Origin: Pelotomaculum schinkii
GTDB lineage: Bacteria > Bacillota > Desulfotomaculia > Desulfotomaculales > Pelotomaculaceae
Assembly (NCBI RefSeq): GCF_004369205.1
Contig: NZ_QFGA01000001.1
Location: 1,550,001-1,614,000 of the forward strand
Length of the DNA: 64,000 nucleotides
Direction: 5' to 3'
Both the position numbers and the translations under genes were made by a program. The notes under the pieces were generated by a model. The model was not told the DNA's origin, searched no databases, and saw only the letters and a list, made by a program, of their open reading frames with translations. Of the stretch, positions 5,592 through 51,766 are shown one piece after another (positions within the stretch are counted from its first letter, which is position 1; each line of letters starts with the position of its first letter).

Positions 5592-6896
5592 ATGCATGCA
5601 TCTAAAATTCAAATGATGAAATCAACAGAATCAACTTTGGGAATAAATAAGAACGAATGTATCCAATTTGGGATAGGTTTTGCTACCGGAAGAAAAAGTT
5701 TCCAGAAAGTTTTAAAAGCCTATCTTTATAATTGGAAAGAAGCCCGTCAGCAGGAAAAAGAAAATATTAACCTCCATTTATTGGTGGCATATGATTTAAA
5801 ATATTCCAATACAAAATCTACGGATTATACCAATCTCAATCAAGACATTGTTGATATGATTGAACAATCATATTTTATTGACAGAAAATCACTGCTAAAA
5901 AATATTGAGGATTTAATGCAAGATAAGGTAATCTCTGAAAAAGAAATCACTTCTTTTTTTGGTAACGGTTATGCCGGAAAACGCAATGCCATTCTTTATA
6001 CGGCAATAAGGAATAAAATTGATTATCTTGTTTTTCTTGACGACGATGAGTATCCAATGGCAGTTACCAAGAATCATAGTGCTGTGCTATGGAGTGGACA
6101 GCATATACTGACGAATCATCTCAAATTTATTAAGGAGGCAGATATAACAAACGGTTATCATTGCGGGTATATTTCTCCAATCCCTAATGTTAATTTCGAT
6201 AATACTCTCTCCGAATCAGACTTCCGATTGTTCATTGAGGCTATCAGCAATGATATTGTTAATTGGAATTCCATCCGTAATATTATGAAAAACGGTGGTG
6301 TTACTTATGCCGATACCAATATACTGGTCAACGAGTTAGCGGAGGAAGTTGCAGAAGTCAATCATTGCAAGTTTATTACAGGCGCCAATTTATGTATAAA
6401 CCTCACTAATCCCAATAAGGTATTGCCTTTTTACAACCCACCCGGAGCCCGTGGCGAGGACACTTTTTTAAGTACCTGCTTAAACAGCCATAAAGTAATC
6501 CGTATTCCTTGCTATGCCTTCCATGACGGATTTTCAGCTTACAATCATTTGTTGGACGGTGTTCTTCCTACAACCCTTGGCCATATCAGCACGAACTCCG
6601 AAAAGATAGTTAACCGTTTTTACCACGCTTGCATCGGATGGATACGCTATAAGCCTCTTTTACTGTATATCACTCAACGGGAGCACTATGAGGATAAAAT
6701 CCGGGAAGTAGAGGAAAAGCTTGCCGTAACGTTGCCTAAAATTTGCGCATATTTCAACCGGAGTGATTTCATGAAAATCTCTTCCGAATTAGCTTTGTAT
6801 AGCAGAAATGTCAAAAAACACTACAAGCATTTTCTTGACACACAAGCGATTTGGACTAGAATCCTTGAATATTTAAAAACAACAAATAAGTGCTGA
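5592..6896 (+). CDS. Putative GT-A-type glycosyltransferase (about 434 aa)
   Basis: I do not recognise a precise family. The protein has a GT-A-like pattern: a region with GYAGKRNA, then a strand ending in an acidic cluster (YLVFLDDDEYP) like the DXD metal/nucleotide-sugar site, and later a GARGEDTFL segment resembling the catalytic-acid ED motif of GT2-like enzymes, with HDG following. The C terminus is helical. The open frame begins at 5472, but the ATG at 5592 has a GAGGAG ribosome site 11 bases ahead and the first 40 residues of the longer frame look hydrophobic and unrelated, so 5592 is preferred. It stands alone and AT-rich between two unrelated loci, which suggests acquisition. Sugar donor and acceptor are unknown. 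Confidence 0.55.
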   Translation: MHASKIQMMKSTESTLGINKNECIQFGIGFATGRKSFQKVLKAYLYNWKEARQQEKENINLHLLVAYDLKYSNTKSTDYTNLNQDIVDMIEQSYFIDRKSLLKNIEDLMQDKVISEKEITSFFGNGYAGKRNAILYTAIRNKIDYLVFLDDDEYPMAVTKNHSAVLWSGQHILTNHLKFIKEADITNGYHCGYISPIPNVNFDNTLSESDFRLFIEAISNDIVNWNSIRNIMKNGGVTYADTNILVNELAEEVAEVNHCKFITGANLCINLTNPNKVLPFYNPPGARGEDTFLSTCLNSHKVIRIPCYAFHDGFSAYNHLLDGVLPTTLGHISTNSEKIVNRFYHACIGWIRYKPLLLYITQREHYEDKIREVEEKLAVTLPKICAYFNRSDFMKISSELALYSRNVKKHYKHFLDTQAIWTRILEYLKTTNKC

Positions 6897-6914
6897 TATC
6901 GTATCAGCACTTAT
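6886..6914 (+). terminator. 13-bp perfect hairpin overlapping the stop of the glycosyltransferase-like gene
   Basis: ATAAGTGCTGATA (6886-6898) and its exact complement (6902-6914) flank a 3-base loop. The stop codon TGA at 6894-6896 is inside the left arm. Together with the next hairpin it closes the gene. Confidence 0.6.
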
Positions 6915-14541: not shown

Positions 14542-14903
14542 CGAAAGGTGAGTTAGAAGAAGTTTTCGGTTCCGGTACCGCTGCGGTCATCTCCCCTGTT
14601 GGCGAGCTATCTTGGAAAGGACAAAAAATCGTAATCAACAATAACCAAACCGGTGAATTTGCTCAAAAACTCTTTAATTATGTCACTGGCGTACAGTCTG
14701 GTAAAATTGCGGATCAATTTAATTGGATGGAGGAAATAACAGGTTAAACGTCTACTGATTAATCATATCTCAAGCATAGACTACCTTAACATATTAAAGA
14801 AAGATATACAGAACCCTTACCACAAAGTAACGCTACTAAACCTGACCCGATTTGATGGACACGGTAAATGGCTGGTACAATAAAACCAGTGGAGGTGTCC
14901 ATC

Positions 14904-15188
14904 ATGAAACGTTACGATAAGCATTTTAAAGAAGAAGCGGTCCGCCTGGTAGTAGAGTTGGGGCGATCCGTGGCAACGGTGGCCAAAGAACTCGGTATCC
15001 ATGAGAACACCCTGCACAAATGGGTTAGTCAGTATAAAGAACATAAGGAAAACGCTTTTCCAGGCAGCGGCAATCTACTGCCAGAGGACGCAGAAACCAG
15101 GCGTTTAAAAAAAATGATAGCTGATTTACAAGAGGAAAACGCCATTCTAAAAAAGGCCACGGCCATCTTCGCAAGACACCAGAAATAG
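14904..15188 (+). CDS. IS3-family transposase OrfA (94 aa)
   Basis: DNA-binding subunit with an N-terminal helix-turn-helix (about residues 5-50, VAKELGIHENTLHKWVSQY) and a C-terminal leucine-zipper-like helix (LKKMIADLQEENAILKK). The ATG at 14904 has GGAGGTG upstream and is preferred over 14868. A canonical slippery heptamer A-AAA-AAG at 15149-15155, in the OrfA frame, would allow a -1 shift into the orfB frame, which is open from there through to its own ATG. A fused OrfAB transposase is therefore expected. Confidence 0.92.
   Translation: MKRYDKHFKEEAVRLVVELGRSVATVAKELGIHENTLHKWVSQYKEHKENAFPGSGNLLPEDAETRRLKKMIADLQEENAILKKATAIFARHQK
15149..15155 (+). promoter_or_regulatory. Programmed -1 frameshift site of the IS3 element
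   Basis: The heptamer AAAAAAG is read A-AAA-AAG in the OrfA frame (codons CTA AAA AAG). The -1 frame is free of stops from here into OrfB. This matches the IS150/IS3 arrangement for producing the OrfAB fusion. Confidence 0.75.
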
Positions 15189-15226
15189 CTTATAAGTTTA
15201 TTAATCAGCACCGCTTCAAATTTCGG

Positions 15227-16051
15227 GTGGAGAAGATGTGCCAGGTTTTTGGAGTCTCTCGAAGCGGTTACTATGCTTGGCTGAAAAGGCCGGAAAGCCG
15301 GCGAAAAATCCGGAATAAAGAACTAATTAAAAAGATCCGTAAGGTTCATCAGATTTCCCGGGGTACTTATGGTAGTCCGAGAATAACCAGGACCTTGAAG
15401 AAACAAGGCATTACTTGCAGCCGGAACCGGGTGGCCCGCCTGATGCGGGAGAACGATATAGCCGCCAAGACAAGGAGAAAATTTAAGGCTACCACTAACT
15501 CAAAGCACCATTATCCGGTTGCTGAAAACATTGTTAATCAGAACTTTACTGCCAGCCATCCTAATCAGGTCTGGGTTGCTGATATTACATATGTCGCAAC
15601 GGATGAAGGGTGGTTATACCTTGCAGCTATTGAAGACCTGTTCCAAAGAAAGATTGTGGGCTGGGCTATGGACAGTACAATGACTCGCCAGTTGGTCCTG
15701 GATGCTCTCAGACAGGCAGTTTGGCGGTATCGGCCATCAGCAGGACTTATTCATCACTCAGACCGCGGGAGTCAATATGCCAGTCATGAATACCAGCAAG
15801 CTTTAAAGGACTACGAAATGAACGCCAGTATGAGCCGCAAAGGTAATTGTTATGACAACGCCTGTATGGAATCGTTTTTTGGAACCCTGAAGAGGGAACT
15901 GATTTATGGTACCCGATTTAAAACAAGAGCTGAAGCCCGTCAAGCCATCTTTGAATATATTGAAGTCTTTTACAACCGGGTTCGGCTGCATTCAGCCCTT
16001 GGATATATGTCGCCAGTCGAATACGAACAATCCTTTAAAACAGCAGCGTAA
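15227..16051 (+). CDS. IS3-family transposase OrfB, DDE integrase domain (274 aa)
   Basis: Catalytic part of the transposase. The N-terminal HTH_21-type region (REN-containing RLMRENDIAAKTRRKF) precedes a retroviral-type integrase core with the three acidic residues in VWVADITYV, HHSDRGSQYAS and CMESFFGTLKREL. The C terminus FYNRVRLHSALGYMSP is typical of IS3 OrfB. The frame is complete and probably mainly expressed as an OrfAB fusion by frameshifting. Confidence 0.94.
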   Translation: MEKMCQVFGVSRSGYYAWLKRPESRRKIRNKELIKKIRKVHQISRGTYGSPRITRTLKKQGITCSRNRVARLMRENDIAAKTRRKFKATTNSKHHYPVAENIVNQNFTASHPNQVWVADITYVATDEGWLYLAAIEDLFQRKIVGWAMDSTMTRQLVLDALRQAVWRYRPSAGLIHHSDRGSQYASHEYQQALKDYEMNASMSRKGNCYDNACMESFFGTLKRELIYGTRFKTRAEARQAIFEYIEVFYNRVRLHSALGYMSPVEYEQSFKTAA

Positions 16052-16479
16052 GTGGCCGTTCATCGTAGCGAAGCGAAGACCCTTTACATGGAGAATGCCC
16101 GTGTTAGCCTTGATTGGCAAGGGCCATAAGCAAAGCGATACTGGCCCCTTGGTCCTTGGCAACACGGGTGCGAGGCTCCATGTCAAGGGCGGCCACGGCT
16201 CTTATTCGATACTTGGTCGAACATGAGAAAGAATTTGCTAAGCCTCATTCCCAGCCTAAAATTGAAAATCTGTGAAAACAGAAGATAATCCGCCATTTTC
16301 TATGTCTATTTTAATGGGGCAAGCTCACTACCATGAGGGGCGTGTGGGTGACCGTATGGGTTCAGTCCCACCCTAGACACCATAAATGGGGCTTAAACAT
16401 AGGTTATTTACATTCTCTAAGTAATTATGTGTGGGTCCTTCGACACTAAAAAACTTGATTTTAATGGGCTGTAGGTTTA

Positions 16480-27019: not shown

Positions 27020-27436
27020 TTATTTCTTACCGTTTTTTGTTTCCGGAGCCAAGTGCTGTTCCTTGACAAAGGGAGTGTGGTCAGTTTCCCTGTGATAGTC
27101 AGGCACCGGCCAGCCAAAACGGCGTCGCTGCCTCAACCGGAAAGCAGCCGCATGTTTTTTTAATTCAAAACCCACCCCGGCCGCCAGCCGGGAAGCTTCC
27201 AGGCCGGCTGTTTCAATGTATTTATTTTTGACAGCCCTGTCCAGAATATCTTCACCTATAGGTGTGCGCACCAGGCAGGAAGAGGTCCCTATGGTCTCAC
27301 CGGCTTGAGCTTGGGGATCCCAGTAATCCCCCACGGAGAGGTCTGCCAATTCCGCCGACCAGTCTACACACATCTCGCAGGGAGCCCGCTTGAAGGCCGG
27401 CATGAGATGGTGATACATATACTGGTGCCGGTCCAT
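27020..27436 (-). pseudogene. Coenzyme F420 hydrogenase/dehydrogenase beta-subunit C-terminal fragment
   Basis: The 138 codons match the C-terminal FrhB/FdhB domain: CEMCVDWSAELADLSVGDYWDP carries the Cys-X2-Cys and the D-X-SVGD signature, followed by SSCLVRTPIGEDIL. The usual N-terminal 200 or more residues are missing. The break coincides with 27433-27529, a 97-bp piece of the antitoxin-like gene found intact at 39256 onward. The apparent start Met is therefore an accident of the junction. A terminator follows. Non-functional, in my judgement. Confidence 0.75.
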
Positions 27437-27529
27437 CTGGAAGCTTGAGCTTTACACGCATATCAGCCCAGTCATTTAAAGGCATCTTTTCAACTTTTTA
27501 ATACTTAAAAAAGGAACATCCGCCAGACA
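27433..27529. repeat. 97-bp duplicated fragment of the AbiEi-like antitoxin gene
   Basis: This stretch equals 39256-39353 except for a one-base change in a T run. It encodes part of the sequence MPLNDWADMRVKLKLPDG on the minus strand. It joins the truncated F420-type gene to the region downstream of the signal peptidase fusion, marking a recombination scar. Confidence 0.9.
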
Positions 27530-27544
27530 GGTATTTCCTTCCAA

Positions 27545-34717: not shown

Positions 34718-35484
34718 AAGATTCCCTTCACTTTCGTGCAAATTATGTTACATTATAGTAAACACCGTGTATGCTTATTACCTATTGTGCTACATAAATT
34801 AATTTAAGTTTTTTGTTAGTACAAAACAATGGTCAAAAAACCAAAATGTGTGGCATATCCATGAAAACCCGTGCCGAATGTTACTTATCATTGAAAAATT
34901 TTACAGGACAAGAGGAGCACTACCCATGGTGAATCAGGCCGATCTTCGTGTTGTCCGGAGTAAAAAAATGATCAAGGATGCGTTTGTTGATTTAATTGAA
35001 AAAGAAGGGTATGAAAATATTACTATCAAGGACATTGCAAAACGGGCCATGATCAACCGGAAAACCTTTTATTCTCACTATGAAAGTAAAGCTGTTCTCT
35101 TTGATGAAATAGTCAAGGATACCCTGGATCTGCTTATGCAAAATTTACAGTATGAAAAATTGGATTTTGACGATGCTCTTTTCTCTATTGATTTACAAAG
35201 GGAAATCCTGAGCTTGCCCCATTAAAATAGACATAGAAAATGGCGGATTATCTTCTGTTTTCACAGATTTTCAATTTTAGGCTGGGAATGAGGCTTAGCA
35301 AATTCTTTCTCATGTTCGACCAAGTATCGAATAAGAGCCGTGGCCGCCCTTGACATGGAGCCTCGCACCCGTGTTGCCAAGGACCAAGGGGCCAGTATCG
35401 CTTTGCTTATGGCCCTTGCCAATCAAGGCTAACACGGGCATTCTCCATGTAAAGGGTCTTCGCTTCGCTACGATGAACGGCCAC

Positions 35485-36309
35485 TTACGCTGCTGTTTTA
35501 AAGGATTGTTCGTATTCGACTGGCGACATATATCCAAGGGCTGAATGCAGCCGAACCCGGTTGTAAAAGACTTCAATATATTCAAAGATGGCTTGACGGG
35601 CTTCAGCTCTTGTTTTAAATCGGGTACCATAAATCAGTTCCCTCTTCAGGGTTCCAAAAAACGATTCCATACAGGCGTTGTCATAACAATTACCTTTGCG
35701 GCTCATACTGGCGTTCATTTCGTAGTCCTTTAAAGCTTGCTGGTATTCATGACTGGCATATTGACTCCCGCGGTCTGAGTGATGAATAAGTCCTGCTGAT
35801 GGCCGATACCGCCAAACTGCCTGTCTGAGAGCATCCAGGACCAACTGGCGAGTCATTGTACTGTCCATAGCCCAGCCCACAATCTTTCTTTGGAACAGGT
35901 CTTCAATAGCTGCAAGGTATAACCACCCTTCATCCGTTGCGACATATGTAATATCAGCAACCCAGACCTGATTAGGATGGCTGGCAGTAAAGTTCTGATT
36001 AACAATGTTTTCAGCAACCGGATAATGGTGCTTTGAGTTAGTGGTAGCCTTAAATTTTCTCCTTGTCTTGGCGGCTATATCGTTCTCCCGCATCAGGCGG
36101 GCCACCCGGTTCCGGCTGCAAGTAATGCCTTGTTTCTTCAAGGTCCTGGTTATTCTCGGACTACCATAAGTACCCCGGGAAATCTGATGAACCTTACGGA
36201 TCTTTTTAATTAGTTCTTTATTCCGGATTTTTCGCCGGCTTTCCGGCCTTTTCAGCCAAGCATAGTAACCGCTTCGAGAGACTCCAAAAACCTGGCACAT
36301 CTTCTCCAC
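35485..36309 (-). CDS. IS3-family transposase OrfB (274 aa), copy 2
   Basis: Identical at protein level to the OrfB at 15227-16051, with the complete DDE core (WVADITYV, HHSDRGSQYAS, CMESFFGTLK). Expected to be made as an OrfAB fusion by -1 frameshifting. Confidence 0.94.
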   Translation of the reverse strand: MEKMCQVFGVSRSGYYAWLKRPESRRKIRNKELIKKIRKVHQISRGTYGSPRITRTLKKQGITCSRNRVARLMRENDIAAKTRRKFKATTNSKHHYPVAENIVNQNFTASHPNQVWVADITYVATDEGWLYLAAIEDLFQRKIVGWAMDSTMTRQLVLDALRQAVWRYRPSAGLIHHSDRGSQYASHEYQQALKDYEMNASMSRKGNCYDNACMESFFGTLKRELIYGTRFKTRAEARQAIFEYIEVFYNRVRLHSALGYMSPVEYEQSFKTAA

Positions 36310-36347
36310 CCGAAATTTGAAGCGGTGCTGATTAATAAACTTATAAG

Positions 36348-36632
36348 CTATTTCTGGTGTCTTGCGAAGATGGCCGTGGCCTTTTTTAGAATGGCGTTTT
36401 CCTCTTGTAAATCAGCTATCATTTTTTTTAAACGCCTGGTTTCTGCGTCCTCTGGCAGTAGATTGCCGCTGCCTGGAAAAGCGTTTTCCTTATGTTCTTT
36501 ATACTGACTAACCCATTTGTGCAGGGTGTTCTCATGGATACCGAGTTCTTTGGCCACCGTTGCCACGGATCGCCCCAACTCTACTACCAGGCGGACCGCT
36601 TCTTCTTTAAAATGCTTATCGTAACGTTTCAT
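36348..36632 (-). CDS. IS3-family transposase OrfA (94 aa), copy 2
   Basis: Identical at protein level to the OrfA at 14904-15188, with helix-turn-helix, C-terminal coiled coil and the A-AAA-AAG slippery site near its end. The start corresponds to the ATG preceded by GGAGGTG. Confidence 0.92.
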   Translation of the reverse strand: MKRYDKHFKEEAVRLVVELGRSVATVAKELGIHENTLHKWVSQYKEHKENAFPGSGNLLPEDAETRRLKKMIADLQEENAILKKATAIFARHQK

Positions 36633-37055
36633 GATGGACACCTCCACTGGTTTTATTGTACCAGCCATTTACCGTGTCCATCAAATCGGGTCAGGTTTAT
36701 CCAGACGATTTTGCATAATGTCACCGAGAACAGGAGGTTATTTAGAATTCTCTTTAGCAGCAGCTCAAGCTATGAACTTACTATGCAAATAGAACGGCTC
36801 TTACAGACAAAAATTATCTATAAATTAATTAAGGCAAATCCGGCTAAGGACCTCTCTGAAATACCCCAAGAGTTGTTAACCAGTTCAGTGTCCTCGGTTT
36901 TTATGATCATTATAAAGTGGTGGATCAATCAGGATGTATATTCAAAAGAAGACGCTGCTAAAATTTTCTTGAAGCTAGTTTCTACAGGATTTACGAAATC
37001 GTTTGGTTTTACTAATTAAGAGAATTAAAACTGCGAACGTTACCAGGCAAAATAA

Positions 37056-37099: not shown

Positions 37100-37756
37100 T
37101 TATTCTACAAATATTACCATTTCATCCAGCGGTTTTTTTCCAGGACTTTTTGCTTCACCATCTGGAACACCTATGGGGAGCATAGTTGCGAGAAACCAAC
37201 CTTCTCTTTCAAATCCTAATTCTTCTTTAACAAAAGCCTCAATCTCCCTGTGTGCCCAATTCTGACTTGTCATGGTGCAGGAGCCGTAGCCTAAATCCAT
37301 TGCCATGAGTACGCCATTTTCTACGGCAGCACCCAAACTCTGCATACCGCAGTTCTGCAGAAACAGATGATCTAATTCCTCATGCGGCATGTTTATCATT
37401 TTATATTCAGTGTATGCAGCTGGCGGTGCCGTATACGAATAGATCATCACCAGTACGGGAGCATTAAGTGCAAAGAGCGTGAAAAGCTTCGTAAACTTTT
37501 CAAACCGTGCGGCTCTTTTTTCATCGACCTCAGCAACTCTGCTGACAACTTTCGCAAGCTTTGTATTAATGACATCAGCCAGTTTATTCATGAAATCCTT
37601 GTTTTTAACTACGATGAAATGCCAATTTTGATCGTTCTCCGCGGATGGACCTACTCGTATCGCATCAAGTATTTTCAGGATGTCTTCTTTTGGGACATCT
37701 GTATCCTTGAATTTTCTGATACTATGCCTCGAATAAATCAAATCTTTTAGTTCCAC
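37100..37756 (-). CDS. Nitroreductase-family flavoprotein (about 218 aa)
   Basis: FMN-dependent nitroreductase fold. The N-terminal RHSIRKFKD block and GPSAENDQNWHFIVV are the phosphate/FMN-binding and substrate loops. LGAAVENGVLMAMDLGYGSC is the conserved middle helix, and the C terminus has the IGVPDG...PGKKPLDEM pattern. The frame is open to 37777 (ATG), but GGAGGAGAGG sits before the GTG at 37756, which gives the normal start, so this is preferred. It follows the truncated AbiEii-like gene, and the junction may be a recombination point. Confidence 0.85.
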   Translation of the reverse strand: MELKDLIYSRHSIRKFKDTDVPKEDILKILDAIRVGPSAENDQNWHFIVVKNKDFMNKLADVINTKLAKVVSRVAEVDEKRAARFEKFTKLFTLFALNAPVLVMIYSYTAPPAAYTEYKMINMPHEELDHLFLQNCGMQSLGAAVENGVLMAMDLGYGSCTMTSQNWAHREIEAFVKEELGFEREGWFLATMLPIGVPDGEAKSPGKKPLDEMVIFVE

Positions 37757-37773
37757 AGTCCTCTCCTCCATTC

Positions 37774-38352
37774 TCAAAATTCGTCTTTCTCCTTTAATCG
37801 GTCATGCAGTGCCATACCTTTCATAATAATAAATGGCACAATGGAAGCCACCCGGATGGTAGTAGTATCATTACCGCCACCCGGCAGTTCCCCTTGTATG
37901 GCTACTTCCTGGTACATTTCAAAAGACAAATCACAACCACGTGCTTTACGTGCTTTTATTTCCTGAATCTTCTGGGTGCGATGGCTTTTACCTGTTCCTT
38001 GGTATTCCCCGGCTAAAAAGTCTACTTCAACCACAACATCCCGGCCATTGACGGAAACAGTCCGGTAAAAAATAAAAGGTTGTTGAGCTCCCTGACGGTA
38101 GCCTCTCTCCAAGAGAAGTTCCATAATTGTTCTGTAATGAGTATCCATAAGCGTACGGTGATTTAAAGCCATATCAATGTCCATACTTCCAATATGTCTT
38201 TCCTGGCTTTGAGGAAGCAGAAGCTCCGGAACCCACCCCCCTACAAGCACGATATCTTCCCGGTATTGACCAAGCAGGTGGGTTAGTTCCAGCAGTACGG
38301 ACCTCGCCGCTGCTACTGCATCAGCTGTATAATCTGTGCGTGTGGCTACCAT
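37774..38352 (-). CDS. AbiEii-like nucleotidyltransferase toxin, probably C-terminally truncated (192 aa)
   Basis: The nucleotidyltransferase signature is IVLVGGWVPELLL (Gly-Gly) followed by HIGSMDIDMAL (the D-X-D metal ligands), with a third acidic residue in VVEVDFLAG. This fits the AbiEii/AbiGii toxins of type IV toxin-antitoxin systems, which modify RNA ends. The chain stops after KGMALHDRLKEKDEF, where relatives usually continue through a DAYDI helix for a further 50-80 residues, so the C-terminal domain seems lost. The start overlaps the upstream antitoxin-like gene by 7 bases. It may be inactive. Confidence 0.75.
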   Translation of the reverse strand: MVATRTDYTADAVAAARSVLLELTHLLGQYREDIVLVGGWVPELLLPQSQERHIGSMDIDMALNHRTLMDTHYRTIMELLLERGYRQGAQQPFIFYRTVSVNGRDVVVEVDFLAGEYQGTGKSHRTQKIQEIKARKARGCDLSFEMYQEVAIQGELPGGGNDTTTIRVASIVPFIIMKGMALHDRLKEKDEF

Positions 38353-39401
38353 TGCGACTTAATAACCTCCTCTAAAAGAACACTTGCAGCCTCTTCACCG
38401 CGTCCTCGGATCTCACGAAGATCTAAATAAACTTGGACGGGCGTCGCTACCTTAACCCAATCGTAGTTCTTGGCTCCATAAAAAACACCGTCGTCGTAAG
38501 GAACCAACAAACTGACATTAGCACCGCTAGATACTTTCTTAAGGTTCATCTGTAGAGCCAGGTTTTCAATGGCTTCCTGCTGGACATAGGCCGTAACGCG
38601 CTGGTATCGAACAGAAGGCGCCATTCTTGCAGCTCCGGAAAATCCGGTTAAAACGTAAACGTATTGGATATTTTTCATGTCACAGATTCTAGCCAGTTCA
38701 TATTCAATTTCGCTTACGGATTTTAGTGAATAAAAATCATGAACTTGATTGCGCCGGAAATCGTAATTCTCTGCCCATTCAAACAACAACTGTTTCGGCT
38801 TGTTAAGCAAAAGTCCGTTCATATTAAAGCTGAGCCATTCTCGGTCAGCCAGCAGACTTTTCACGTTGGCAACCTGCCCTAAGCTTACCTCAGACTCTTC
38901 TGCCAAAGCCTGCATTTTCCACTCCCTGCCGGGATTGCTCAGAAGAACCCGCAATACTCGCGTTGCTTTGGGAGAATACAGTGACCGCAAGTCCCGCTTA
39001 TGGTTAAATGGATTAGCCTTTCCTTCCTTGTATATGTAAACCTGGCCAAAACTAAGACGGCTGTTCCCCGCCAGATCGATATAACCAACTCCTTCATTGA
39101 CACATATTTCCGCAGACTGTGGGGAGATGTAAGGAGCAATAAGTACAGGATAGCTATTGGGAAGTGCGTTTTTGTACCTTAATAACTGATTAATAGCATC
39201 ACGTACAAGCCTCGGTTGCCCGTTGCTTTTTACTTCGACAATAAGAAACAGATCACCATCTGGAAGCTTGAGCTTTACACGCATATCAGCCCAGTCATTT
39301 AAAGGCATCTTTTCAACTTTTTTAATACTTAAAAAAGGAACATCCGCCAGACAAGTCAACAGAGCTTTTTCAGCCTTATTCTCCAATTGTTCATATTTCA
39401 T
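38346..39401 (-). CDS. AbiEi-type antitoxin-like protein with nuclease-like N terminus (about 351 aa)
   Basis: The N-terminal region (about 25-125) has a PD-(D/E)XK-like pattern: an acidic residue before LFLIVEVKSNGQPR (E-X-K) and a following helix with AINQLLRYK. A winged helix (about 150-210; ATRVLRVLLSNPG...LAEESEVSLGQVANVKSLL) and an AbiEi-like C-terminal domain (about 215-350; YVLTGFSGAARMAPSVRYQRV) follow. The ATG at 39401 with GGTGAT is preferred over 39422, which lies inside the operator palindrome. It is coupled to the AbiEii-like toxin. It should be the DNA-binding autoregulating antitoxin; whether the nuclease-like fold is active is unknown. Confidence 0.75.
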   Translation of the reverse strand: MKYEQLENKAEKALLTCLADVPFLSIKKVEKMPLNDWADMRVKLKLPDGDLFLIVEVKSNGQPRLVRDAINQLLRYKNALPNSYPVLIAPYISPQSAEICVNEGVGYIDLAGNSRLSFGQVYIYKEGKANPFNHKRDLRSLYSPKATRVLRVLLSNPGREWKMQALAEESEVSLGQVANVKSLLADREWLSFNMNGLLLNKPKQLLFEWAENYDFRRNQVHDFYSLKSVSEIEYELARICDMKNIQYVYVLTGFSGAARMAPSVRYQRVTAYVQQEAIENLALQMNLKKVSSGANVSLLVPYDDGVFYGAKNYDWVKVATPVQVYLDLREIRGRGEEAASVLLEEVIKSQW

Positions 39402-39410
39402 TATTATCAC

Positions 39411-39434
39411 CATTTTCAGCATTTGCTGAAAATG
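39411..39434. promoter_or_regulatory. Operator palindrome of the toxin-antitoxin operon
   Basis: CATTTTCAGCA (39411-39421) is perfectly complemented at 39424-39434 with a 2-base centre, ending 10 bases before the antitoxin ATG. Type IV antitoxins of the AbiEi kind bind inverted repeats in their own promoter, so this is a good candidate for autorepression. Confidence 0.7.
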
Positions 39435-39603
39435 ATTATATCAGTGAAAATACTTATTGTCAAGTTTAGGAAATTCCACAGCCCTCTGCGTATGAGTTAG
39501 ATAAAATATGATGTACCCTTCGTTTTTCCAACCCGCAACACGGGTGGTGAGGGTGCTGTACTCAGTGGCCGAAATTGCTGTATTTTATGTTACCGCTAAC
39601 ATA

Positions 39604-40248
39604 TAATTTGCATTTTCATTTTAATGATATAATCGATGTAATATGAAAAAATACCTGGTTAATTCTTCCGGAGACTGTGCCATATCATTTTGTATCCACC
39701 ATTTGACGGTTTCAACAAAACCACCAGCCATATGATTAACAACATACTCTTTAGGGATTCCATCCAAACTTTCGTTTGTCATAAATTCATTGAACAACTG
39801 CTCCAGATACTTTTTAAATAAGCTTAAAAACAACTCTCCACTTTCACGCGTGAGAATTCCTTTCATATCTCTTTTGCTATCTTTTAAGTGATATAAAATA
39901 TGCGTGATTTTAGCCTCCAGGTCGTTATTAGAAGAGGAAAAATCATGAGTGTTTTCAGAAATTAGATCCTTAGAGAATACGTGGTCAAATATATCGCTGC
40001 ATAATGCCTTCAATAAACCGTAGCCATTGTTCTTTCGGTTTTGGGTCTTCTGAACCCCATTACAGGCGCTTTGGTGCATAATGCCGGATCGGTGTTGGTA
40101 GTTTTAAATGCAGCTCTTCTTTACGATAGAAATTTTGCTCAATAAAAGAAACGTATCCCTCAAGTACTCAATCTCGTTGCTTGGGGGGTACGTTGTTTTA
40201 ATTATACTATTCATACACTCCGATTTGTATCTATATTGCTCTCGTTTG
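39604..40248. pseudogene. Internally deleted duplicate: TetR 3' part joined to the metal-ATPase 3' end
   Basis: From 39604 to 40017 this matches 46628-47041 (3' part of the tetR gene, minus strand) with a few per cent differences. From 40018 to 40248 it matches 50486-50714 (last 42 codons of the P-type ATPase, plus strand, and its terminator) almost exactly. The 3.4 kb that lie between these two segments in the intact locus are absent. The 152-residue minus-strand open frame 39621-40079 is thus a chimera lacking the TetR DNA-binding domain. Confidence 0.92.
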
Positions 40249-45869: not shown

Positions 45870-46190
45870 GGTAATTTGGCATACATTTCTGACCAACTCC
45901 CGCCTCCGACACCAATTGAAATGCAACGTAAAGGCCAAAAATTCAATCTATCTGTGATTTTGAAAAAGCCCCATAGAGGGGCTTTTTCAGTACACAACTT
46001 TCTTGTCCAACAACAAATGTTATTGAACAATAAAGTTGTGTACTGACTGAAGCCGCTATACCTGATATTTAGCCATCTTTTCTCTTTTGATTTCTTAATA
46101 ATTATAAAATAATGTTGTGTACTGAAACAGCAGCAAAACTGACCGGATCAAGCTGAAAAAAACAATAAAGTTGTGTACTGGGTTCCATGT
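45870..46190. repeat. Transposon-end-like repeat, copy B
   Basis: 45908-45999 closely matches 51617-51711. It includes an AGCCCC/GGGGCT hairpin (45966-45985), then an imperfect 23-bp inverted repeat (45990-46012 and 46021-46043). Three direct copies of an AAAGTTGTGTACTG-type unit lie at about 46031, 46109 and 46172. Segments GCAGCAAAACTGACCGG at about 46131 and 42539 tie it to copy A. Confidence 0.65.
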
Positions 46191-46627: not shown

Positions 46628-46644
46628 AAATTTGCATTTTCATT

Positions 46645-47199
46645 TTACTGATATAATCGATGTAATATGAAAAAATACCTGGTTAATTCTTCCGGGGACT
46701 GTGCCATATCATTTTGTATCCACCATTTGACGGTTTCAACAAAACCACCAGCCATATGATTAACAACATACTCTTTAGGGATTCCATCCACACTTTCGTT
46801 TGACAAAAATTCATTAAACAACTGCTCCAGATACTTTTTAAATAAGCTTAAAAACAACTCTCCACTTTCACACGTGAGAATTCCTTTCATATCCCTTTTG
46901 CTATCTTTTAAGTGATATAAAATATGCGTGATTTTAGCCTCCAGGTCGTTATTAGAAGAGGAAAAATCATGAGTACTCTCAGAAACTAGATCCTCGGAGA
47001 ATACGTGGTCAAATATATCGCTGCATAATGCCTTCAATAAATCGTCTTTTGTTTCAAAATGGGAATAAAAGGTACTTCGACCTATATTGGCTTCATCAAT
47101 GATTTCCTGCACCGTAATTTTAGAATATCGCTTATGTGCCAAAAGTGAGCTGAAAGCACTAAAGATTGATTCCCTCGTTTTTTGTATTCGTCTATCCAT
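46645..47199 (-). CDS. TetR/AcrR-family regulator (184 aa)
   Basis: Intact version of the gene whose 3' part is duplicated at 39604-40017. The helix-turn-helix is at about residues 10-50 (ITVQEIIDEANIGRSTFYSHFETK), and the C-terminal domain (FVETVKWWIQNDMAQSPEEL) is of the same type as that of the IS-disrupted TetR at 34926-37019. The ATG at 47199 with GAGGAT is preferred over 47256. It is divergent from the DUF1786 gene at 47378 and may control it or the metal ATPase. No clear palindrome was found between them. Confidence 0.86.
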   Translation of the reverse strand: MDRRIQKTRESIFSAFSSLLAHKRYSKITVQEIIDEANIGRSTFYSHFETKDDLLKALCSDIFDHVFSEDLVSESTHDFSSSNNDLEAKITHILYHLKDSKRDMKGILTCESGELFLSLFKKYLEQLFNEFLSNESVDGIPKEYVVNHMAGGFVETVKWWIQNDMAQSPEELTRYFFILHRLYQ

Positions 47200-48741: not shown

Positions 48742-50613
48742 ATGGAGAAAACTATGGACTTTCTAGCCGGATTAAAGATGACCATAGTTTCAGGTGTTTT
48801 CTTAGCCGCCAGTTTAATTTTAATGCTAACCGGAACGGAACTGCCTGTTGACCCAGCTTGGGTTACAGTTGTGATTTCCGGCTTACCGCTTTTATATCTT
48901 GCAATTACAAGATTGGTTTTTGAGAAATGGATTTCATCCGCTCTGCTAATTTCTATTGCTATGGTTGCTTCAATCGCAATTGGCGAACTCTTTGCAGCAG
49001 GCGAAGTTGCTTTTATTATGGCAATTGGCGCTATTCTTGAAGACATGACCGTTGCTCGTGCCAAAAAAGGTATCGGTAAACTGATTTCACTTTTACCACA
49101 GCAAGGCAGAAAATTGATTCATAATGCTGACGGTGTTCGTGAAGAGTTTGTCCCCATAGAACAGATATCAAAAGCTGATCTGCTTCGTGTTCTTCCAGGT
49201 GAAACGATTCCTGTTGACGGCATCATTATCTATGGTAATACCTCTGTTGATCAATCTGTTATGACTGGTGAATCTCTGCCTGTAGATAAAAAAGAAAACG
49301 ACAGCGTTTTCTGCGGAACGATGAATTGCTATGGATCAATTGACATCCGTACTACCCAAGTAGGTAAGGATTCGTCGCTGCAAAAAATGATTGATATGGT
49401 TAAGGCAGCAGAATACAAGAAAGCGCCTATGCAGAAAATCGTTGATGTATGGGCAGCATGGCTTGTACCTATTGCCCTTCTGATTGCAATAGTTGCATAT
49501 ATCACCACAAATGACATTGTCAGAGCAGTCACTGTATTGGTCGTATTCTGCCCCTGCGCATTGGCTCTTGCAACACCAACCTCGATTATGGCAGCCATCG
49601 GTCAGGCTACTAAACATGGTGTACTGATTAAGTCCGGTGAAGCCTTAGAACGCATGGGAAATGTAGACTGCATTGCCTTTGATAAAACCGGTACTCTTAC
49701 CTATGGAAATCTGAAAGTATCGGATATTATTCCTCTGGATGAAACTATTAGTAATGTTGAATTACTCTCAAAGGCGGCATCCGTTGAAAAACGATCTGAA
49801 CACCCTCTTGCAAAAGCAATCATCAAGTACGCTGAAGATAATGGATTGGTTATTAACGAAGTAGAAGATTTTCAGATGATACCTGGAAAAGGCGTGACGG
49901 CAACAATATCCAGTAAAACAGTGATTTGCGGCAATGCTCTCTATATAAAGGAAAACTCGATTGCCGAAACCGATAAAATGCAGAATATCTTAGTCAATTT
50001 AAGAAATCAAGGCAAGGCATCTATCATCGTGGCTGAAAATGGTAATGCAATCGGAATCATAGCTCTTTCTGATACCATTCGCCCAACTGCAAAAAATCTT
50101 GTTGCGAAACTTGGTGCTATGGATACCGATGTTGTTCTCCTTACAGGTGACAATCATCTGACAGCGAAATATATGGCAGAGCAGGTTGGGATCAAGAATA
50201 TCCGTGCAGATCTGCTTCCGGCACAAAAGGTTTCAAGCATTGAGGACTTACAAAAGGAAAACAAAATCGTCTGCATGATTGGCGATGGCGTGAATGACGC
50301 TCCTGCTCTAAAAATGGCAAATGTCAGTGTTGCAATGGGCAGTATGGGAAGCGATATTGCCATAGAAGCCGCCGACATCGCCTTGATGAGTGACAACATA
50401 GATAAAATACCGTATCTCAAACGATTGTCAAACTCCACTCTCCGTACAATCAAAGGCAACATAACCGCATCCATGGGTATCAATGCCGTAGCCATTGTTC
50501 TTTCGGTTTTGGGTCTTCTGAACCCCATTACAGGCGCTTTGGTGCATAATGCCGGATCGGTGTTGGTTGTTTTAAATGCAGCTCTTCTTTACGATAGAAA
50601 TTTTGCTCAATAA
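48742..50613 (+). CDS. P1B-type heavy-metal-transporting ATPase (623 aa)
   Basis: Metal efflux pump. The membrane domain is followed by the actuator TGESLPV (about residue 175), the transmembrane metal site CPCALALATP, the phosphorylation motif FDKTGTLTYG, the P1B-specific HP in RSEHPLAKAI and the hinge GDGVNDAPAL. There is no N-terminal heavy-metal-associated (CXXC) domain, and the protein is short, like CadA/ZntA-type pumps lacking their sensor domain. CPC with no extra His-rich tail is compatible with Zn/Cd/Co, but specificity is not established. AGGAGG precedes the ATG. Its last 42 codons are duplicated at 40018-40142. Confidence 0.92.
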   Translation: MEKTMDFLAGLKMTIVSGVFLAASLILMLTGTELPVDPAWVTVVISGLPLLYLAITRLVFEKWISSALLISIAMVASIAIGELFAAGEVAFIMAIGAILEDMTVARAKKGIGKLISLLPQQGRKLIHNADGVREEFVPIEQISKADLLRVLPGETIPVDGIIIYGNTSVDQSVMTGESLPVDKKENDSVFCGTMNCYGSIDIRTTQVGKDSSLQKMIDMVKAAEYKKAPMQKIVDVWAAWLVPIALLIAIVAYITTNDIVRAVTVLVVFCPCALALATPTSIMAAIGQATKHGVLIKSGEALERMGNVDCIAFDKTGTLTYGNLKVSDIIPLDETISNVELLSKAASVEKRSEHPLAKAIIKYAEDNGLVINEVEDFQMIPGKGVTATISSKTVICGNALYIKENSIAETDKMQNILVNLRNQGKASIIVAENGNAIGIIALSDTIRPTAKNLVAKLGAMDTDVVLLTGDNHLTAKYMAEQVGIKNIRADLLPAQKVSSIEDLQKENKIVCMIGDGVNDAPALKMANVSVAMGSMGSDIAIEAADIALMSDNIDKIPYLKRLSNSTLRTIKGNITASMGINAVAIVLSVLGLLNPITGALVHNAGSVLVVLNAALLYDRNFAQ

Positions 50614-50616
50614 AAG

Positions 50617-50668
50617 AAACGTATCCCTCAAGTACTCAATCTCGTTGCTTGGGGGGTACGTTGTTTTA
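50617..50668 (+). terminator. Terminator of the metal ATPase gene
   Basis: AACGTATCCCTCAAG pairs imperfectly with CTTGGGGGGTACGTT around an 18-base loop and is followed by GTTTTAAT. The same hairpin is present in the duplicated segment near 40148-40199. Confidence 0.7.
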
Positions 50669-50718
50669 ATTGTACTATTCATACACTCCGATTTGTATCT
50701 ATATTGCTCTCGTTGCTG

Positions 50719-51527: not shown

Positions 51528-51766
51528 CAACTACCGCACTGGACACCATTTTAAATAGGGCTTAAACATAGGTAATTTATATTCTCTAAGTAATTGCAAA
51601 GTATATGTGTTGGCCCTCCGACACCAATTGAAATGCAACGTAAAGGCCAAAAATTCAACCTATCTGTGATTTTGAAAAAGCCCCATAGAGGGGCTTGTTA
51701 GTACACAACTTTATTGGCTTAGTACACAACTTTATTGTCTAGTACACAACTTTATTGTCCAACAAC
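51528..51766. repeat. Transposon-end-like repeat, copy C, with three tandem motif copies
   Basis: 51540-51600 is similar to 16375-16425. 51591-51627 matches 43708-43744. 51617-51711 matches 45908-45999. After the AGCCCC/GGGGCT hairpin (51675-51694) come three tandem copies of AGTACACAACTTTATTG (starting 51698, 51719 and 51739). No transposase is nearby. Confidence 0.65.

Follow-up and report, generated by a model that had tools for sequence, protein, structure and literature searches.

Two overlapping genes on the reverse strand of the window (the whole 64-kb stretch of Pelotomaculum schinkii DNA that was analysed) raise the question of whether they form a working variant of an abortive infection system or the remains of one. 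A sequence-only reading had described them as an AbiE-type toxin-antitoxin pair, possibly a variant defence system in decay, with a nuclease-like antitoxin unlike the classic AbiEi, a clear operator and a toxin that seemed to lack its C-terminal domain. The locus belongs to the COG4861-COG4849 branch of the AbiE family and is an ordinary, decayed member of this known kind of pair. It is likely to be a horizontally acquired operon that has lost its toxin function and in which an autorepressor remains. The features on which this reading is based are collected in Table 1.

Table 1. Positions of the features discussed in the text (window coordinates)
Feature	Position	Strand	Basis
Antitoxin/repressor gene AbiEi_2 (PF09952, COG4861)	38346..39401	-	ORF; Pfam E-value 9.8e-21; start chosen from 87 relatives
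Predicted PD-(D/E)XK nuclease-like domain, residues 1-125; D39, E56, K58	39027..39401	-	DSSP order, structure matches, D/E/K counts
Predicted winged-helix DNA-binding domain, residues 126-215	38757..39026	-	CadC, NolR and MarR-type matches, Z 8-9
Predicted nucleotidyltransferase-like antitoxin domain (AbiEi_2), residues 216-351	38349..38756	-	PF09952; structure matches
Toxin gene, AbiEii/MenT-type nucleotidyltransferase, truncated at 192 aa	37774..38352	-	Alignments with relatives
Junction where AbiE toxin similarity ends, after the GAC codon of motif IV	37774..37783	-	DNA compared with relatives, by eye
Perfect palindrome, 11-bp arms, centre of the operator-like element	39411..39434	-	CATTTTCAGCA-TT-TGCTGAAAATG
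Operator-like element, 26+2+26-bp dyad (54 bp), four half-sites	39396..39449	-	20/20 consensus bases
Sigma-70-type promoter, TTGACA-N17-TATAAT	39435..39463	-	12/12, with TG preceding the -10; shares bases with the operator-like element
100-bp stretch nearly identical to part of the antitoxin gene (window 39256-39356)	27433..27532	+	99/101 identical

The gene pair and its shortened toxin

The antitoxin is 351 aa long when read from the ATG at 39401 and 358 aa when read from 39422. Its PF09952 match scores 75 bits (curated cut-off: 21) and spans residues 206-354 of the longer frame, which is the C-terminal half only. This domain, which we take to be DUF2186, is matched at E-values of 0.1 or lower in 77 of the 80 rows of the antitoxin alignment (the window and 79 related loci), the window among them; PADLOC and NCBIfam models gave noise only. 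The toxin gene follows the antitoxin gene directly and overlaps its stop by 7 nt. The window toxin matches no model in Pfam, NCBIfam or PADLOC, so its identity rests on alignment to relatives: PF08843 is matched at E-values of 0.1 or lower, in some cases weakly, in 51 of the 62 rows of the toxin alignment.

Pairs of this kind have been noted before. In the excerpts of the literature covered, PF09952 is listed as COG4861 (PMC7251935), COG4861-COG4849 pairs are described as AbiE-like (PMC3985639), M. tuberculosis Rv0836c-Rv0837c is named as a DUF1814-COG4861 pair (PMC3968373) and AbiE is ranked fourth in abundance among phage defence systems (PMC11375011). The P. schinkii locus shares with COG4861-COG4849 pairs (PF09952 with PF08843) the antitoxin family, the gene order, toxin motifs I-III and a spread over plasmids and chromosomes, but its toxin stops before motif IV is complete and has no C-terminal helices, and its upstream region lacks the distal operator copy.

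Relatives were collected by scanning one genome per species with a six-row alignment, and the best 80 of 182 were kept (L018-L097). Near-identical loci (e.g. L057/L059, L095/L097 and L060/L066) were retained in the counts and not thinned. In one locus (L048) no start codon was found near the expected place, and both its antitoxin and toxin frames are broken; it was left out of the antitoxin alignment and the operator count. The toxin alignment consists of 60 long relatives, the window and one short relative, L038 (62 rows). Three further loci were left out of it (L059, L083 and L042, the last because its frame is broken near the start of the toxin), although L042 and L083 are still counted among those with a toxin frame of 260-320 aa.

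The window toxin retains the GG and DxD motifs, with motifs I-III and the first Asp of motif IV intact. It aligns with its relatives until the K-D of motif IV, continues for two extra residues and then stops. The second Asp of this motif is present in 60 of the 62 rows, the gaps being the truncated window and L038. In 63 of the 80 related loci (best 80 of 182) the toxin frame is 260-320 aa long and its product ends in a helical bundle that the window toxin lacks; among the others, four toxin frames are cut by a contig end and 13 (L048 among them) are broken or missing though the DNA continues. The model of a full-length relative, the L020 toxin (pLDDT 91.9), is predicted to have the same fold as MenT1 (Z 14.3), TglT/MenT3 (Z 11.6-12.1) and JHP933 (Z 11.8); the window copy is truncated by comparison. 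Because the window toxin ends inside motif IV, the helices from about residue 189 to 276 of this model are gone. The window toxin is very probably inactive, since all that normally follows the first Asp of motif IV has been lost.

These comparisons agree with the sequence-only reading as far as the gene pair and its decay are concerned. Two overlapping genes of the AbiE type are present as described, the antitoxin gene is whole, and the toxin has kept its GG and DXD motifs without its C-terminal domain, the second Asp of motif IV having been lost as well. Long toxins are found in the 63 loci counted above, and a toxin ending at the same place as that of the window was found in one locus out of 80. 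This toxin comes from an Acidobacteriia MAG (L038 4091-4660), and its end lies no more than three residues from the truncation point.

The toxin stop codon (TGA, 37774-37776) lies at the junction, with a nitroreductase frame directly behind it (37100-37777; PF00881) that has the Shine-Dalgarno-like sequence GGAGGAGAGG ahead of its GTG. A search of the rest of the genome at E-values up to 1 did not find the missing toxin end, and the idea that it had moved to another place was rejected on this basis. Whether the nitroreductase is a conserved core gene that was interrupted by an insertion was also considered, but the comparison was uninformative (matches in 3 of 59 other genomes at an E-value of 1e-20, with 27-33% identity).

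Domains of the antitoxin

The AlphaFold model of the antitoxin (mean pLDDT 94.9), built from the 80-row alignment, is predicted to comprise three domains: a nuclease-like fold of the PD-(D/E)XK type at the N terminus, a winged helix in the middle and, at the C terminus, a domain resembling nucleotidyltransferases. The core of PD-(D/E)XK proteins has the order alpha-beta3-alpha-beta. In the model, DSSP assigns helices to residues 2-18 and 63-79 and strands to residues 25-31, 40-46, 49-57 and 83-89; because this gives the order helix, three strands, helix, strand, residues 1-125 can be read as such a core. Structure matches within residues 1-120 include PaqCI (Z 10.3 over 117 residues, 3.1 A), NucS (Z 9.2), Cdn1 (Z 9.0) and MspJI (Z 8.7), although Z scores of 8-10 are modest by the tool's own note. 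The top Foldseek match for this domain is EndoMS (E-value: 5.1e-4), and weak Pfam matches to Mrr_cat (best E-value: 5.6e-4) and NucS_C (best E-value: 2.7e-3) were each obtained for 7 of the 80 members of the antitoxin alignment. For the winged helix, MarR_2 is matched at E-values of 0.1 or lower in 14 of the 80 members. Residues 227-351 are predicted to resemble MenT1 (Z 10.9) and ANT(2'') (Z 10.2). The PDB sequence search with each protein and the 80-row profile yielded nothing useful, the best match being to a MarR-type helix at an E-value of 1.

The residue pattern of PD-(D/E)XK nucleases is D...E-x-K. In the numbering from the likely start, the E-x-K motif of the window antitoxin is E56-V-K58, which corresponds to E63/K65 of the longer frame, and D39 would complete the metal site, its placement and that of E56 and K58 being judged from sequence order. 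D39 is conserved in 73, E56 in 70 and K58 in 72 of the 80 rows, and all three are present in 60, including the window. At least one of them has been lost in the other 20 rows, so catalysis cannot be essential everywhere. In 51 close pairs the median dN/dS is 0.17 in the nuclease-like domain, compared with 0.13 in the winged helix and 0.15 in the C-terminal domain; by this measure the front domain is constrained like the rest of the antitoxin. An association between loss of these residues and loss of the toxin was examined and rejected (residues lost in 4 of 12 loci without and 15 of 63 loci with a full-length toxin; Fisher p 0.49).

The predicted front domain thus carries the E-x-K motif ahead of the winged helix, as the sequence-only reading had proposed: the modelled N terminus folds like nucleases and the weak Mrr_cat and NucS_C matches agree with it. 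The antitoxin also differs from the classic AbiEi as claimed, because residues 1-125 precede the winged helix. What did not hold is the impression that this is a peculiarity of the locus. The nuclease-like domain is normal for the relatives; by the alignment, it is an inherited feature of the family whose metal-site residues have been kept.

In AbiEi, as far as the excerpts consulted cover it, the winged helix comes first (PMC3985639, PMC7319586), and likeness of AbiEi to nucleotidyltransferase structures has already been pointed out (PMC7319586). AbiEi of Streptococcus agalactiae and Rv2827c (both COG5340) share the winged helix and the nucleotidyltransferase-like C-terminal domain with the window antitoxin, but they begin with the winged helix, whereas the window antitoxin has the PD-(D/E)XK-like domain in front. 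Neither AbiEi (6y8q) nor Rv2827c appears among the best 50 structure matches of the antitoxin model, which by the tool's note excludes nothing. With NucS/EndoMS, PaqCI, MspJI and Can2/Cdn1 the front domain shares the core fold and the D...E-x-K residues; it differs from these nucleases in being a putative nuclease fused to a repressor-antitoxin, with a catalytic-type residue lost in a quarter of the rows (20 of 80).

Antitoxin structures and binding data in the parts of the literature examined come from the two-domain COG5340 branch, and COG4861 is shown there only as a putative regulator or antitoxin. Among the matches listed, which lie mostly outside the subscription literature, no description of a nuclease-like domain for the COG4861/PF09952 family was found, and a term search of the main text of a 2007 survey of PD-(D/E)XK families did not return the names AbiEi, PF09952 or COG4861. 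Binding, toxicity or nuclease data for the COG4861-COG4849 branch were likewise not found in the portion of the literature searched. In our view the nuclease-like domain most likely supports DNA binding, or the pairing of monomers on the operator, and catalysis is possible.

Operator, promoter and start codon

Perfect palindromes with arms of at least 11 bp and a spacer of at most 4 bp occur twice in the 64-kb window and in none of 12 order-1 Markov copies of it. One is the palindrome of Table 1, and the other lies at 6886-6914 (13-bp arms, 3-bp spacer). The former is the centre of a longer dyad with the half-site layout TTTCA-N13-TTTCA-N8-TGAAA-N13-TGAAA. This element was scored, at any position, in 88 loci (the window, eight plasmid loci and 79 others). 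A score of 20 is reached in 47 of the 88 loci and one of at least 16 in 78, and the best score in 1760 shuffles, in which base composition only was kept, is 15 out of 20, seen twice. In 69 of the 88 loci an element scoring at least 16 has the same spacing from the start codon as that of the window. Both a proximal and a distal element, each scoring at least 15, are found in 56 of the 88; the window keeps the proximal element without the distal one, and its similarity to the relatives, judged by eye, ends just upstream of TTGACA.

The antitoxin most likely starts with the ATGAAA at 39401, rather than with the ATG at 39422 inside the palindrome. A start within the palindrome was rejected because of the relatives: among 87, of which 16 gave no match to the palindrome pattern used in the scan, an in-frame stop precedes the downstream start in seven, and in 12 (one of them also among the seven) the codon at the palindrome site is other than ATG, GTG, TTG or CTG. 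The last half-site usually falls within the start-codon region (ATGAAA or GTGAAA), a placement favoured by the preference for TGAA-type starts with which start codons were picked. The perfect palindrome with 11-bp arms is real, and the operator claimed for it is borne out as an operator-like element. Its claimed position at the start codon is not: the palindrome lies upstream of the likely start, in the middle of the larger element.

Excerpts of PMC7319586 give the AbiEi operator as two 23-bp inverted repeats 3 bp apart and attribute two such pairs to Rv2827c. The arrangement in the window (26+2+26 bp against 23+3+23 bp) is comparable in being a long inverted repeat across the promoter, but the sequences differ. 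The two inverted-repeat pairs of Rv2827c resemble the two elements in 56 of the 88 loci scored here.

Origin of the locus and competing explanations

At an E-value of 1e-10, matches were found in one of 113 genomes of the P. schinkii class (its own) and in two of 398 genomes of the phylum, again including its own. Because of this near-absence the pair looks acquired from outside the lineage. The nearest relatives among the best 80 of 182 are 59% identical and come from Deltaproteobacteria MAGs. At an E-value of 1e-5, antitoxin-like proteins occur in 80 plasmid records and toxin-like proteins in 62, and many of the plasmid matches listed are annotated as type IV AbiEi and AbiEii proteins. Phage records gave no match at the same threshold. 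A scan of viral sequences with the single antitoxin found none, and a scan with the 80-row alignment identified antitoxin relatives in 3 of 63 pattern-matching stretches, on the viral contigs L145, L146 and L147.

The surroundings of the operon contain several repeats. Besides the copy of an antitoxin piece listed in Table 1, a copy of a toxin piece lies in the same genome at C1:1544866-1544984 (L015 9866-9984; 118/125 identical, 6-bp gap). Both copies are 100-125 bp long, sharply bounded and far from the operon in unrelated contexts. Further short repeats, 96-99% identical, pair 39605-40021 with 46629-47045 (holding part of a TetR-type regulator), 40018-40246 with 50486-50714, and 45903-46005 with 51615-51716. 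With these short, near-identical repeats the region looks like a patchwork of fragments. In addition, 14837-16327 and 35209-36699 are 100% identical 1.49-kb copies in opposite orientation, probably of an IS3-type element by the look of their two frames, and could invert the 19 kb between them.

The proposed history of the operon runs from acquisition to partial loss. A toxin-antitoxin operon of the COG4861-COG4849 branch would have been acquired, and its antitoxin gene has stayed whole. The winged helix of the antitoxin is expected to bind the 54-bp operator, which extends across the -10, the transcription start and the ribosome-binding site, and so to shut off its own promoter, as the conserved sequence suggests. 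The C-terminal nucleotidyltransferase-like domain is presumably the antitoxin part, as in the AbiEi literature. A deletion would then have removed the toxin after the first Asp of motif IV, joining it to the nitroreductase gene, and the remaining autorepressor may now govern this gene directly behind it.

The alternative that survives best, though we regard it as unlikely, is that the antitoxin is kept for a job of its own (as repressor of the gene behind it or as a nuclease), toxin loss being tolerated or even favoured and lone antitoxins forming a functional class. An open antitoxin frame without a full-length toxin, though the DNA continues, is found in 12 of the 80 related loci, and dN/dS is ordinary (0.09-0.21) in the nine pairs that involve a locus without toxin. 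Because the antitoxin was used to find the 80 loci, however, toxin loss is over-sampled among them, and such losses may be recent; nor is loss of the D/E/K residues associated with toxin loss, as described above. A two-way search at an E-value of 1e-10 covered 155 genomes of one class, several of which are also among the 80 loci, and gave toxin matches in 13 genomes and antitoxin matches in 23. Twelve of these 23 have no toxin match at this threshold, but their antitoxins are distant relatives (best E-value: 3.6e-51) with toxins that may be too diverged to detect, and the one neighbourhood read among them (L128) does hold a nucleotidyltransferase gene. Against a separate class, moreover, all 11 full-length toxins have an antitoxin directly upstream; one antitoxin (G630) is followed by a toxin fragment only, and two genomes (G571 and G576) have toxin fragments and no antitoxin match at 1e-10. 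This outcome fits toxin-antitoxin logic and by itself shows no separate job for the antitoxin.

Two of the loci in these surveys differ in their domain make-up. In L052 (2160-3519, from an Actinomycetota MAG), one of the 12 loci without a full-length toxin, the nuclease-winged-helix part and an MntA-type domain (PF01909, E-value: 3.7e-15) form one protein. A HepT-like gene (PF01934, E-value: 1.7e-24) follows this fusion, and a palindrome of the same type as in the window lies ahead of it. The combination recalls MntA-HepT (HEPN/MNT) systems, whereas the window pair uses an AbiE-type domain and toxin. Since L052 is one case on one MAG contig it may be an assembly chimera, and none of 80 matching plasmid records covers 80% of the hybrid. 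The L128 antitoxin (PF09952, E-value: 7e-7; frame of 228-237 aa), beside a nucleotidyltransferase of PF12281 (E-value: 7.9e-11), has no nuclease domain, so pairs of this general type can do without one. Taken together, their sequences suggest a division of roles, with the front part as control cassette and the back part as matched antidote.

It is highly improbable that the 192-aa toxin is a working minimal nucleotidyltransferase comparable to MenT1 (about 190 aa), which is toxic without a long C-terminal part. The frame is open, without an internal stop, motifs I-III are whole, motif IV keeps its first Asp, and L038 stops at nearly the same point. However, the alignment of MenT1 with the full-length model runs to residue 232, whereas the window toxin ends at the equivalent of 190 and so is missing helices still present in MenT1; it has no second Asp in motif IV, and homology stops at the junction and not at a designed domain end. 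Least probable of all is an assembly or sequencing artefact. A chimeric assembly could give the several near-identical pieces of 100-400 bp that lie in unexpected positions, two of which derive from this locus. However, each of the copies shows a mismatch and a gap of 1 or 6 bp relative to its source, so they are not plain read duplicates, the assembly has eight contigs and the missing toxin end was not found in it, and toxins of relatives are truncated at other places.

The reading of the locus as a decayed, acquired operon makes the window copy itself matter less than the family-level facts, namely a conserved nuclease-like domain and a regular composite operator. Models of antitoxin neutralisation in the excerpts of the literature covered are binding, kinase activity and auto-phosphorylation. 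A bolder proposal, which we consider distinctly unlikely, is that COG4861 antitoxins are active nucleases that read the four-half-site operator, cut nucleic acid and neutralise a tRNA-modifying nucleotidyltransferase, the front part being a portable control cassette, as the single L052 hybrid would suggest. If this were true, the nuclease could trim the nucleotides that the toxin adds to tRNA, so that the antidote would repair damage instead of binding the toxin; alternatively, incoming DNA could be its target, which would make it a second weapon. The COG4861 branch adds to the AbiE plan a third, predicted nuclease-like domain with conserved metal-site residues, together with a very regular operator-like element, and both bear on how COG4861 antitoxins may neutralise their toxins.
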